In this document: in pieces, positions 4,036-10,072 of the stretch | Position numbering within the stretch: the first letter of the stretch is position 1 | Layout: every line of letters begins with the position of its first letter | Origin: Mucidula mucida | Taxonomy: Eukaryota; Basidiomycota; Agaricomycetes; Agaricales; Physalacriaceae | Assembly: GCA_015501055.1 (NCBI GenBank) | Contig: JADNYV010000058.1 | Span: 124,001 to 188,000, forward strand | Direction: 5' to 3' | Length of the DNA stretch: 64,000 nucleotides | The notes under the pieces: model-generated | What the model saw: only the letters and a program-made list of their open reading frames with translations | Told to the model about the DNA's origin: nothing | Database searches by the model: none | Translations under genes and position numbers: made by a program

Positions 4036-6232
4036 TCAGCTCGTGAAATGTGAGTTGTGAATGCTCTTTCTAGGTTCATCTGTGGCCATGTTACATAGGC
4101 GAGCATCCATTGAGGGTGTGTCAAGCAATGAGAAAGTGTTTCCATTGCTCGTCAAGAGGCCGCGTCTGATGAATGCGCGCGAATTGAGAACCTGCCATAT
4201 GTTTTAAGTGACTGACGATATGCGAAGTCGTGAGATGGGGATTCACCACAAGCAGGCTGTTCGAATAGAGTTTGCAGAGCGCTGTAGATAGTGCAAGGTG
4301 ATAATTATAATGTCGGAACACCAGGAACAATGTCAAATCTAGTACCGCGATGACAGCACAGAGCATTCCGGTCTCAACGATTAAACATAGTAACCTGGTG
4401 TACAGCGGGCTCGCCGCTGCGAGATCATCGATCTGAGATCGGTGAAGGTAGAATACTAAACTCCCCGCAATAATGAGATCGGCAGTCGCGGCGCCGCCAA
4501 GCCACACCTAGGAAAATCAGAATGATAGGTGTTGACGCGAAGATCAGTACTAACAGACACAACCACAAATAGTTGCCCTTGACTGTGCATGTAGTTGTTC
4601 AAGTGATGTGCTTTAGCACCCGTCCATATTCCTCCAACACACTGCACGATTGATAACTAAAGATCTGATGAGTATCATGGGATGCATATTATCGTCAATG
4701 GCGTACTAGTAAGACGATTGCAGGCACCCAGATTGCTTTGCTCAGGATAAGAATTTGCCTAGTCTGAAGCCTATGTAGTCTCGTAAACCAACTCAACGAG
4801 AGAAGATGGGATACTCATGATTGTCTCTTAGTAGAGTCTGGAACCTATGTAGGGGGTACCTCATAGGCTCACTTCGGACTTCAAAAATTGCAGATGCCAA
4901 ACCCTAACCACAGAGTGTGCCATCAGACTGGAACCAGATGGATACAAGCTCGCAGCTTTTGCACTACTGAATCATATACCTCAAATTTACTGCCTTTAGT
5001 TAAAATTGCATATCTAAGGTCTGTCTATGGTTCATCATTCCTTGAATTTTCACTATAGATCACCTGCAACTTGATAACAATCCTCCGAATGGCCGGATGC
5101 GCTGCAACAACTGCCCACACTGCACTGTTGAGGCGCTGTGCCACATCAATCTCTCCATTATATGTAGAAGACTAGAGCCTATGTGGGGGTACCCTGTGAG
5201 GCTCACTTTGGAGTTTTGAAATGCACTAAGGTTAGGGTTACCGCTGGTTACCAATCACGCTAAATCATCCAGTGTTCACTGAGCACTCATCCCACTTTCA
5301 CCAGTGTAATCTACGTATAATGGAGAGATTGATGTGGCACAGCCCCTCAACAGTGCAGTGTGGGCAGTTGTTGCAGCGCATCCGGCCATTTGGAGGATTG
5401 TTATCGAGTTGCAGGTGATCTATAGTGAAAATTCAAGGAATGATGAACCATAGACAGACCTTAGATATGCAATTTTAACTAAAGGCAGTAAATTTGAGGT
5501 ATATGATGCATCAGTAGTGCAAAAGCTGCGAGCTTGTATCCATCTGGTTCCGGTCCGACGGCACACTCTGTGGTTAGGGTTCGGCATCTGCGATTTTCGA
5601 AGTCCGAAGTGAGCCTATGAGGTCCCCTACATAGGTTCCAGACTCTACCAAGAGACGATCATGAGTATCCCATCTTCTCTCGTTGAGTTGGTTTACGAGA
5701 CTAGAATTTGCCAATTGAAGAATGATTGAGCAAAAAAGCTGACTGAAACGCTTCACGATTAGGTACAAAAGATGACGGGACGAGGACGTATAGACGCTCA
5801 TCAATATTGGTACACTGAACCACATCATACCAACGGCACCCAGTGCGTCGAGGTTTCCCCACCCGGTTCTAAACACTCTCACACCATCAATCATTACCAA
5901 AACGGTTTGAACAACTTCGATAAAAGTGATCCAAGTAACGAAACACTTCAACCACCAGTGATCTTTGGTGAAGGCTTGAAAGTACAGGACTGGCACACGA
6001 GTCAGTGGTTATCGTCAAAGTGGAACAATTTGGGTATGTACAGACCTGAATGCAAAGCACACCAAAGAACCCAATGTTCATGAAGTGACCCAGGAGCTTC
6101 CAAGAGAATGAAGATGCAAGAAAAGTAGAGGAATAACATACCATCGGGACCGCTCTTTAAGGATACCATAGACTCATTGAATTACAGCTGTCAGATGTAC
6201 AATTTTCCAAGTGGTATCGCGGGCTGGTCCAT
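4036..6232 (-). pseudogene. DUF6534 membrane protein, copy I, disrupted by a foldback element
   Basis: DUF6534 proteins are uncharacterised fungal integral membrane proteins of about 300 aa with several (likely seven) helices. Exons recognised from right to left: start MDQPAIPLGK (ATG 6232), a helix ending GFFGVLCIQV, KDHWWLKCFVTWITFIEVV with DGVRVFRTGWGN, then an exon that should read FNWQILILSKAIWVP, then VWLGGAATADLIIAGSLVFY and the terminal exon VLNSRAF...SMDARL with stop 4036-4038. The FNWQILILSK exon is split by a 944-bp insertion; with insert and one target copy removed the frame is open. Copy IV at 33 kb gives the same exon order. A 3.7-kb transposon also lies about 95 bp upstream of the start. 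Apart from the insertions I saw no other lesion, so inactivation looks recent. Confidence 0.75.
4760..5703. mobile_element. Foldback (MITE-like) element with 388-bp inverted arms
   Basis: Left arm 4776-5163 is the inverted copy of right arm 5316-5703 with only scattered mismatches, separated by about 152 bp. Outer ends are TAGTCT...AGACTA; the left end has an extra 16 nt that begins with the same TAGTCT. The element is flanked by GAATTTGCC at 4751-4759 and 5704-5712, a perfect 9-bp target duplication. The spacer holds a diverged third copy (about 5170-5240) of a motif also present in each arm. No coding capacity is seen. Long inverted arms and a 9-bp duplication are usual for Mutator-like non-autonomous elements, but no source element is in the window. 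Confidence 0.88.
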
Positions 6233-6334
6233 GCTGGGAAAGACGCAGCATTGACGATTGTCATCATTATCAAAAGCATATGCGACAGTTCCCACCGTCC
6301 GGGGATGGACAAAAACGACATCCCTACAGTGTGT

Positions 6335-6358
6335 GGTGGTGGGCATCCGAGGGGTCCG
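6335..6358 (+). repeat. Left terminal inverted repeat of the 3.7-kb transposon
   Basis: 24 bp beginning GGTGGTGGGCATCC, identical to the reverse complement of 10040-10063. The preceding nine bases (6326-6334) repeat exactly after the right end. Confidence 0.88.
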
Positions 6359-6823
6359 CAATGGTAATTTGTACTTGTTTGGTAGCAGCGTCCACCAGCC
6401 TATGGGCAGAATCATGAATGCTCTGTTTTAATAGCACTTCACACATCAACTTCTGAGCCTCCGGACAATGATTAGACATAGGTTTGTATCATATTCGAGT
6501 ACATTGATACAAATGGATATTAATTTATTGTGAATAAGTATGAGTGTATCTGTAGACCTGTACCTCAGAGGACTAATCCACCGAAAATATCATCTGAATT
6601 TTTGTATTATATCACTCGAAATGACCACCTGAAGAGATCTCCCTATGACTTGAAGCCTGAGTTGAAAAGTGTGCTTTACTATTGAAACGACACCAGATCA
6701 CCCGCCAAAGTGTGAGTCACGTCACCGTGACACATCGCGCCACGGTCATTCACGTACCAGTTCTTGCTGTATAAGGTTAAATTACACTCAAGCGAAGCTC
6801 GCAACACTAAATATGGTTATAGT

Positions 6824-9800
6824 ATGGGACGTTACAAGAAAGGTGGCACGAAAGCCAATCAAATTCGCGGAAAAAACCTTCCAACCAATCCTTGCGGCAC
6901 CAAAGCTAATATGGAGAACCTCTCGCCTGCCGATGCTGCCCTTCTTCAGGAGCAGGAGCGGCGCAAAAAGGCAGAGAAACATGCTGCTGCCATGGCAGAG
7001 AAAGCTGCCCACCTACAAAAGAAGGTCGCTGATCTGCAACGCGAAGCAAAGAATGCACGCGATCGCGAAAAGCGGCACAAGAAGGCAAAAGCGGCCTTGC
7101 AGCGCAGGCTGAAGGAGAAGGATCTAAATATAGCCAACTTATACCTCAGGGTACAGTGTGCGGTTGCGGAAGCTTTGGCCGACAAGCGACAAAATCTGGC
7201 AAAACTCGAAAAACTGCTTAACGACGCAAATGCACGACTAGCAAAGGCAAATGAAGACTCCTCCCAATTGCAGAACCTGTCCTTTAAGCAGAAGTCTGAT
7301 CTCATCCTTCTACAAAAGACTCTGCACAACCTAAAGCGCACCGTGGCCCGTGGACGTCGTCTTCGAGAGCGTGTTCTGGAGAAAGCTCATAAGGCAAAGC
7401 TTCTAGCGAAGATGAAGAATAAACATGCCTTCAAGCCACAGATTCGGACGCTTGCACGAACACTCATCTCCTGCGGATGTGCCGAGGGCAAGGTGGGCCC
7501 GCTCATCAAGGATGTCGCGGCAATATTTGGGGTTACCATTAACAAGGTTATGAGCCGTCGTACAGTTCGACGGATCATACTTGAAGGCCTTGTCATGGCC
7601 AACGTACAACTCGGGCATGAAATGAATGCTACCAAAGGTCAGTTTGAGAGCTATTACTATAATAAATCAAACTTACACAGTGTTAGATCTCACGTTAAGT
7701 GGCAACAGCACTTCTCGTCGCAATCAAAACTACCAAGCACATCATGCAACCTATTGCGTGTTGGAGGTACTTCCTGATGGGACCGTTTGCCTGTCGCTTA
7801 AACCCCAGACACGCTTCATGGGTATCCGGTTGACAGTGGATCATACGACATTGAAATCGAAGGAGTTGTGGGTCAAAACAATGCAGGACATTCTCAGCAT
7901 CTATGTTGACTCCCCGTTAGCTAAGAGAACGGCTGGATACCAGTTTGACTTACGCGCAATCTGTCGCAAGCTTCGCGGGATGTGTAGTGATCATGCGAAC
8001 GGGGAAAAGGCAACGGCTGAGGCAATGGAGGAATTAAAACGCAAGGAGACGATGAAGGGACTTGGCGAAGCAAGAAAAAAAGAGATGGGCTTGGAAGCAT
8101 TTGAGGAACTTCTCAGAGAATAGAACTGGAAGAAGATAGAAGACGCCGGAGGCTGGGAGGGATACATGGCCCTCACTCCGGAGGAACGTGCCGTTCGGGA
8201 TATTGCAACGGTGGACGCGATGATGAAGAGTCTAGGCGAGGAAGAGTTCAAAACTCTGTCTGCGGAAGAGCAACGTCTGCTTACCTTGTTTGTTTGGTCC
8301 GGGTGCTGCATGCACAAGGACCAGAACAGTTTCAAAGGGGGAAATGCGGCGATGATGGCGGCATGGAAGGCGCTCGGGCTCCAGGGGCCCATCATCCTCG
8401 CGAACAAGGCCAATGCGGCAAAGGTGCACAATGTCGTCGCACCAGAGACCGGTTCAAGCACACCTACGGAGGCCGAGATAGCGGCGCTCGAAGCATCCAC
8501 ATTTGGTGGTGCGAAAACGGCATCGCTAGCTGGGGCCATCTTCAATAACCGTTGTGATAAGAAGGGTCAAGGAGAGACCCATGTTATCTTCCTCAGTCAG
8601 AAGGTGGAGAAACTTGTTCGGTGGTTTCCACAAACAAACAACACGTGATTTGGCAGTCACGGAGAGGCGGCCGGCGAGCTCCTCCTTCATCTGAAGGAGT
8701 ATTGAGAGTTCCTACTGCATATCAAGACGAAGAAGGTCTCGGTTTCCTGGACAAACATCGAGTTAAACATTTATAATGCGCTTCATGATGACCCAACACT
8801 TACAGAACTGGCCGTTCTCGCCCTCTATCAACAGCTCGTCACCCATCCGTACATGTGTATGGTTCGAAAACCGGAGGAAGCCGCGCTAAACTCGTTGAAC
8901 CTAGGACCGATGCATGCAAGTCTCCGCGAGCACTGCCAGAAGCTCATTGATAATCCAAACTTGATCCTTGATTTTGAGGATGACTGCCACCTCACGGCAA
9001 CATTTGACGGGAAACCGTTTGAGGAGCCTGGCATTGTTGATGCAATCCAAGAGATGGTGGCACTGGCAGAAGGGAAGCTAATACACCTGAAGGAGATGTT
9101 CGTCAGCTTTCTCACTGGCGCAAATGTTACGTGGCTCCAATTCTCATCAGAGTACGCACCTGGTGGCTTGATTGATGGAATGTCCGATGACGAGAAAGCG
9201 CGGGCGTTTATGAACGCAACAAATGACCGAAACAAGGGCGCATTGGGCTCCTGGTGCGTGTTCGCACGGAATAGCCCATCTTCATCTATGCAAAGGCACA
9301 ATGCCCTCGCAATGTTTTCGCGCAATCATACCCAGCAGTTCATCGACGCATTCTTCAGCCCTGAGGATCACATCTGGGCGATGTGCACTGCTCGGAAACT
9401 TGATGCGGCCGGTTTCGAGAAGGCGAGGCGGAAGGAGCAGGCAGAATTCAAGCTCAGGATGGTGGAAATGAAGAGACAGAAGATAGCGAGCCGGAAAGAG
9501 GCTGCAGAGAAGAAGCAGGAGTTATTGGATGCGACGCCGTTGATTGAGAACATCAACGACATCGAGAGGCTCAAGTTGACGGGAAAGAAACTTGACCTCC
9601 AGCTAGACAAGCTTCGTTCCATATGGGGAGCACGGATCCTGATCCCCAAAAGAAGGACATTCTCAAGGTAGCCCCGAAGAAGGATGCACTCCGGGCAGCG
9701 TTCCTATTACATCTCCAGTTCCGTAGGGACGGCGTGGCGCCACTGAGAGTGCAGCCTGACGCTGCTGAAGCTGTCCAGATGGTGGAAATGACTGTAGAGG

Positions 9801-9850
9801 CCTGGCATGAAGACGAGGATGAGGAGATGGATGAGATGGATGAGGATTAG
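6824..9850 (+). pseudogene. Large putative transposase (about 1,000 codons) of an uncharacterised fungal family, decayed
   Basis: The reading frame fills the 3.7-kb transposon. Exon 1 begins MGRYKKGGTKAN (6824; an upstream in-frame ATG is at 6764) and carries about 170 residues of Lys/Ala/Glu-rich coiled coil. An intron (about 7641-7690) leads into LTLSGNSTSRRNQNYQ. Then come RGMCSDHANGEK, VWSGCCMHKDQNSFKGG, SLAGAIFNN and, some 300 residues later, NATNDRNKGALGSW, then a second Lys/Glu-rich coiled coil and an acidic tail. I recall related proteins as common, unannotated, in agaricomycetes. Lesions: in-frame TAG 8121-8123, TGA 8646-8648, TGA 8703-8705, and a one-base frameshift near 9622. Acidic residues in three spaced motifs would fit an RNase H-type transposase with a long insertion before the last one, but that is inference. 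The transposase role is inferred mainly from position between TIRs. Confidence 0.7.
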
Positions 9851-9999
9851 AGGTCAATTGATGGCTTACACAGTAATTACCCACCTTAGGACTCTTACAC
9901 TGTACCAAGCATAATATCTCGCATTTCCGAGCATTTAAAGTCATCAATTCACGTACGACGAGCAAAACGACATGGAAGTAAGGAGAGAGCATTAATTCT

Positions 10000-10021
10000 C
10001 CGGTTACTAAAAAGTAACCGG
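10000..10021. other. Perfect hairpin near the transposon's right end
   Basis: A 9-bp stem (CCGGTTACT / AGTAACCGG) with a four-A loop, 18 bp inside the right TIR. It could be a subterminal transposase site or a transcript-end hairpin; nothing similar was noticed at the left end. Confidence 0.5.
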
Positions 10022-10039
10022 CCGATCGCCTGACTATCT

Positions 10040-10063
10040 CGGACCCCTCGGATGCCCACCACC
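10040..10063 (-). repeat. Right terminal inverted repeat of the 3.7-kb transposon
   Basis: Exact reverse complement of 6335-6358, followed by the second ACAGTGTGT target copy at 10064-10072. Confidence 0.88.
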
Positions 10064-10072
10064 ACAGTGTGT

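Follow-up and report, generated by a model that had tools for sequence, protein, structure and literature searches.

We describe a 3731-bp transposon of the agaric Mucidula mucida, found in a stretch of 64,000 nucleotides (GenBank assembly GCA_015501055.1, contig JADNYV010000058.1, positions 124,001 to 188,000; C582:124001-188000 in our numbering). This whole stretch is referred to below as the window, and its positions are counted from its first letter. The element is very probably a cut-and-paste DNA transposon, moved with a 7-bp stagger by a transposase that combines a hAT-like RNase H fold, DDE (aspartate, aspartate, glutamate) residues, and a CxxH motif, and that is separate in sequence from both hAT and KDZ (Kyakuja/Dileera/Zisupton). 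As in other DDE cut-and-paste elements, there are recurring terminal inverted repeats (TIRs), a target site duplication of fixed length, and related sites without the insertion. Non-autonomous derivatives occur, and the same kind of ends recurs in diverged families of the same genome (G000; 59.9 Mb in 1047 contigs). The fold and catalytic residues of the transposase are predicted from structural models.

Ends, target site duplications, and uninserted sites

The preliminary description of this DNA, made from the letters, placed a complete transposon at 6326..10072, with perfect 24-bp TIRs and a 9-bp target duplication. The element is complete and the TIR holds (6335-6358 pairs with the reverse complement of 10040-10063 at 24/24 positions), but the boundaries are now 6334-10064 and the duplication is 7 bp (CAGTGTG). 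Once the terminal T and A are assigned to the element, the perfect TIR is 25 bp. ACAGTGTGT flanks the element on the left and on the right, and the 9-bp repeat noted earlier is the 7-bp duplication extended on either side by two bases, of which one is the element's own and the other matches by coincidence. The features are as follows.

6334..10064, + strand: whole transposon, 3731 bp, with T...A ends (comparison of the ends of multiple copies, and empty sites)
6327..6333, + strand: left 7-bp target site duplication, CAGTGTG (length taken from empty sites at other copies)
10065..10071, + strand: right 7-bp target site duplication, CAGTGTG (length taken from empty sites at other copies)
6334..6358, + strand: 5' terminal inverted repeat TGGTGGTGGGCATCCGAGGGGTCCG (24/24 from base 6335, plus the terminal T)
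10040..10064, - strand: 3' terminal inverted repeat (pairs with the 5' repeat; genome matches)

Searching the genome with 6335-6358, as had been proposed, recovered further copies with the same TIR (26 matches with ≤3 mismatches, against 0 for a reversed-pattern control). The DNA of these elements is designated TGGTGGTGGGC-ended. The window element as a whole has 35 DNA matches in its own genome, including four further near-full copies at 97-99% identity (on contigs C208, C397, C606, and C117). Internally deleted derivatives of 1434 bp occur on C90 and C323, and related forms with ends ~70% identical on C64 and C166 (916 bp) and on C260 (interrupted). Split or truncated copies are present on C165, C394, C125, and C560; the one at C165:2493-17262 is in pieces, and its ends lack a matching 7-bp duplication. 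Because their flanks are 98.5-99.9% identical, the C208 copy appears from the alignments to be allelic to the window copy, and the C117 copy to the one on C606, so each pair was counted as one site. Taken alone, C208 shows 0/7 duplication matches in a simple comparison, because a few terminal-repeat bases seem to have been lost.

Both ends are readable at 13 sites, and, with the ends written as T...A, an exact 7-bp duplication is found at nine of them (C582, C606, C90, C323, C64, C166, C260, C119, and C105), where the chance of an exact match is ~6 in 100,000 per site under equal base frequencies. A tenth site, C397, matches at 6/7 bases, and the remaining three (C165, C549a, and C549b) show no direct match. 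The count leaves aside the one-ended copies (C560, C394, C125, C107, and C715, the last with a left end that lacks its first bases), relatives whose ends were not recognised, and, being alleles, C208 and C117. Duplication models of 9 bp and 8 bp were also considered; they fail at C323, C64, and C166 and are contradicted by the empty sites.

Uninserted relatives were found for four sites: C166, C323, C606, and the window. Those of the first three carry exactly one 7-mer each (CAAGGAG, AAACCAT, and ATATTTG among the three), and the terminal T and A are absent from them and thus belong to the element. For C606 the relatives come from a dispersed repeat. As a separate observation, this repeat, which contains the C606 copy (L004) and occurs on C149 (L084) and many other contigs, looks retroelement-like; related stretches without the insertion made up 37 of the 40 candidates scored, out of 561. 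Because retroelement-like copies crowded this set, it gave no decision for the C397 site. Empty sites were sought and not found for C64 and C119, and C90 gave only a 73% match.

At the window site itself, a relative on C352 has a single ACAGTGTGT, with the right flank identical at 252/252 positions and the left flank at 89.5% over 256 columns with 21 gaps. Given that single copy, C352 alone cannot discriminate among duplications of 7, 8, and 9 bp. The promoter of DUF6534 copy IV had been put forward as the empty site. It matches the left flank of the element, but on the right flank it is barely above shuffled sequence (score 37 for 150 bases, where the highest of 50 shuffles scored 29), with the match resuming ~24 bases off; by alignment, C352 is the better empty site. 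The window stretch 5703-6258, in the left flank, is ~72% similar to 33577-33000, the DUF6534 copy IV region, and belongs to a local gene family.

The preliminary description treated as decisive whether homologues of the encoded protein are bracketed by the same kind of TIR, and in three diverged families they are. With P0001 (a frame of 741 codons around exon 2, taken from the C397 copy) as the protein query at E ≤ 0.01, 46 stretches of the genome were matched. Family B, on C549, has ~42% protein identity and ends TGGGGGTGGGCAAT, and its 20-base end pattern has eight genome matches (≤3 mismatches; control, 0). Family C, on C119, has ~35% protein identity, ends TGGTGGTCGGCAA, and the duplication GTGTTTG, whereas family D, on C105, is a C-terminal fragment of 62% protein identity with ends TGGTGGTGGGCACCC and the duplication TAGATAA. 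Six further relatives (L065, L066, L068, L070, L072, and L075) showed no convincing ends within the ~1.5 kb of flank examined, which counts neither for nor against shared ends. At C549:184682-195323 (L049, L058, and L059) lie two inverted family B copies whose outer and inner flanks cross-match (CCAATTC), a pattern that inversion of the intervening segment by recombination between the copies would produce. Two scans of viral contigs and one of bacterial and archaeal genomes yielded no relatives.

The transposase gene, its decay, and its predicted fold

The sole gene inside the element does encode a coiled-coil protein of roughly 1,000 codons, as first described, with the addition of one predicted 49-bp intron that joins exon 1 to exon 2 in frame.

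6824..7637, + strand: exon 1, coiled coil, then a conserved stretch ending LARTLI..VMSRRTVRRIILEG (open frame from ATG)
7638..7686, + strand: intron, 49 bp, GTCAGT...TTAG (placed from frame and homology)
7687..9850, + strand: exon 2, transposase core and C-terminal acidic tail (open 741-codon frame in copies L003, L004, and L005)
7704..7706, + strand: first catalytic Asp position, Asn here (alignment and codon comparison)
7989..7991, + strand: second catalytic Asp (SDHA), retained (alignment and codon comparison)
8304..8315, + strand: CxxH motif, CCMH (alignment and codon comparison)
9234..9236, + strand: catalytic Glu position (TNDxNEGxLG), Lys here (alignment and codon comparison)

Exon 1 is 31% identical over 150 amino acids to exon 1 of L059, a family B relative, and its conserved stretch is possibly a DNA-binding region. 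Exon 2 of the window copy is broken by stop codons (TAG at 8121, TGA at 8646 and 8703) and by a frame change before 9671; its first catalytic Asp codon reads Asn and its catalytic Glu codon reads Lys. Judging from these lesions, the window copy is an inactive remnant, and none of the five near-full copies has all three predicted catalytic codons intact. Among those five, 146 of 155 two-state columns are transitions, 123 of them in CpG context. Because the differences are nearly all transitions, mostly at CpG, they suggest methylation-linked decay.

An RNase H fold in a homologue had been proposed as a check. The AlphaFold2 model of a relative has a predicted RNase H-like core topology, with D15, D110, and E521 as the DDE residues, an assignment supported by residue conservation and structural matches. 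A helical domain separates the second Asp from the Glu, as in hAT transposases, and both models made have Hermes, a hAT transposase, as their closest structural match. In Foldseek searches, matches to the first model (predicted local distance difference test score 64.4) were meaningless and the second model had no match at E ≤ 0.001.

We also considered that the gene might be a passenger and that a different transposase, working on these ends, moves the element. In favour of this, the protein of the window copy is inactive, short derivatives that lack most of the gene also move, and one homologue, L061, is enclosed by a hAT miniature element that is unrelated and has an 8-bp duplication of its own. 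Against these points, genes of this type are bracketed by ends of this kind in families A (that of the window), B, and C, with a fragment in D; the predicted fold is that of a transposase; and at L061 the hAT ends enclose those that belong to the gene. A passenger gene is thus, in our assessment, highly improbable.

The L061 locus deserves comment. Its outer 21-bp TIR, TAGGGATGTGCGCC, with an 8-bp duplication, was at one point taken for the ends of the transposon family under study and was rejected; these ends were reassigned to a separate hAT family because that family has dispersed end pairs with 8-bp duplications and a hATC domain in its C78 copy (3.45 kb). That family, with ends TAGGGATGTGCGCCGTACC, is abundant in the genome, and L061:829-4954 is one example. 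A genome scan with its end gave 60 forward and 56 reverse matches (≤3 mismatches; control, 2 and 4), many end pairs lie ~650 bp apart, and exact 8-bp duplications occur in seven of 10 pairs fetched. Inside the hAT ends, L061:1279-4750 is a nested element with the gene, its own ends, and a 7-bp duplication.

Placement relative to hAT, KDZ, and Dada

Searches of the sequence libraries tried bore out the statement that the transposase is unclassified. Pfam returned no match for P0001, the family B core, or window exon 1, and only chance-level matches, far below cut-off, for fragments and exon 1 of relatives. Neither hATC (PF05699) nor any other hAT family is among the nine weakly matched Pfam families of 19 members, or among matches of the exon pieces; the KDZ domain PF18758 and CxC zinc clusters are likewise missing from the matches of transposase members and exon pieces. 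In the Pfam scan, the exon 1 sequences from the window copy, L059, L061, and L069 gave only weak coiled-coil-type matches and no BED zinc finger. Sequence searches of PDB gave nothing real (one chance match, RPL6 at 0.018, in the first and none in the second). Elsewhere in the genome the hATC model has at least 104 matches, reaching 49.4 bits, and the KDZ model at least 89; none of those listed falls in the gene of the family under study (places compared by eye). A weak hATC match on C151 (28171-28326) is ~1.25 kb from a relative of the transposase, and hATC matches at C260:223430-223714, inside the interrupted C260 element, look nested.

By the sequence tests made, the lineage would be separate from hAT and KDZ. 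The earlier claim that the protein cannot be assigned to hAT stands by sequence but is softened by the predicted fold, which is nearest to Hermes. A very diverged hAT element, to be placed inside the hAT superfamily like the lineages with odd duplication lengths (hAT5, hAT6, and hAT7), is possible, though we lean somewhat against it. Besides the structural match, both share TIRs, target duplications of similar length, and the motif order D, D, CxxH, helical insertion, E. The hAT transposases differ in having BED and hATC domains, of which none was found here, where the protein instead has an N-terminal coiled coil, and hATC was readily detectable elsewhere in this genome. The ends start TGGTG or TGGGG, not (C/T)A(A/G)NG, the consensus hAT terminus, and the spacing from the second Asp to the Glu is 411 residues in the model versus ~324 in Hermes. 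Duplications in hAT are usually 8 bp (5, 6, or 7 in sub-lineages), against 7 bp here. The P element and IS256 (ISCth4) gave no sequence match, and their ends differ from those of this element. Within hAT, lineages with 7-bp duplications are known in rust fungi (PMC12730594), where hAT7 is classed by sequence similarity to hAT transposases; no such similarity was found here.

Membership in KDZ or Dada, both known in mushrooms (7-8 and 6-7 bp duplications, respectively), appears improbable. KDZ elements are likewise fungal, with unusual transposases, and Kyakuja makes 7-bp duplications, but it has CA..TG ends without TIRs (PMC12730594); the KDZ Pfam model and cysteine clusters are unmatched here, with none of the listed KDZ matches at family loci. 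The Cryptococcus KDZ elements, at 9-11 kb with TIRs of 139-241 bp, are unlike this one (PMC12810828). Dada shares 6-7 bp duplications and the order D, D, (C/D)xxH, E (DxxH in Dada itself), and occurs in Laccaria (PMC3706591); 15 families listed as Dada are reported for Agaricus bisporus (PMC7473861). It lacks TIRs, inserts in small RNA genes, is 4.7-11 kb long, and encodes a protein with zinc fingers in both its N- and C-terminal portions (PMC3706591; compared by description only). The present element has TIRs and is 3.7 kb long, and 11 loci, which take in 10 of the 13 sites, gave no tRNA or Rfam match.

Whether the hAT-like transposons described here constitute an unnamed eukaryotic DDE superfamily, sister to hAT, we regard as evenly balanced. 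It would be recognised by 5'-TGGKGGTSGGCA ends and duplications of 7 bp, together with a transposase encoded in two exons that has a coiled coil at its N-terminus and the motifs SxDxTSxRxxNYE, GDHA, CxMHK, and TNDxNEGxLG.

Mechanism and significance

By analogy of its anatomy with hAT-type enzymes, the mechanism is most likely as follows. The transposase, laid out like hAT enzymes, with predicted DDE residues in an RNase H-like core, a CxxH motif, and a large helical domain separating the second Asp from the Glu, would bind the TGGKGGTSGGCA ends through exon 1, excise the element, and integrate it at the target with a stagger of 7 bp, which would leave the 7-bp duplication and the T...A termini. 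Internally deleted forms would be mobilised in trans.

That such a family was "described by nobody", as first suggested, was not contradicted by a literature search, which covered open papers but neither Repbase nor fungal protein databases and recovered no description of the protein or its ends; the family is likely undescribed, but this is unproven. In the portions available, these ends are paired with this protein neither by Kojima 2025 (PMC12730594; 7-bp duplications for hAT7 and Kyakuja), nor by Kojima and Jurka 2013 (PMC3706591; Dada), nor by PMC12810828 (Cryptococcus KDZ elements). Elements of A. bisporus with TIRs and 9-bp duplications, with mention of Abr1 (PMC10051438), and active hAT elements of Marasmius (PMC9674265) are known to us by description only.

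Placed as a distant branch beside hAT, P, and IS256, the family would be useful for understanding the origin of that group, and it offers a defined 7-bp system that is open to laboratory testing. The superfamily, if real, would account for what is probably one of the commonest types of "hypothetical protein" in mushroom-forming fungi. A protein type left blank by Pfam gains a probable identity as a transposase, together with its ends and a target-site rule, and such hypothetical fungal genes could therefore be re-annotated as transposons.
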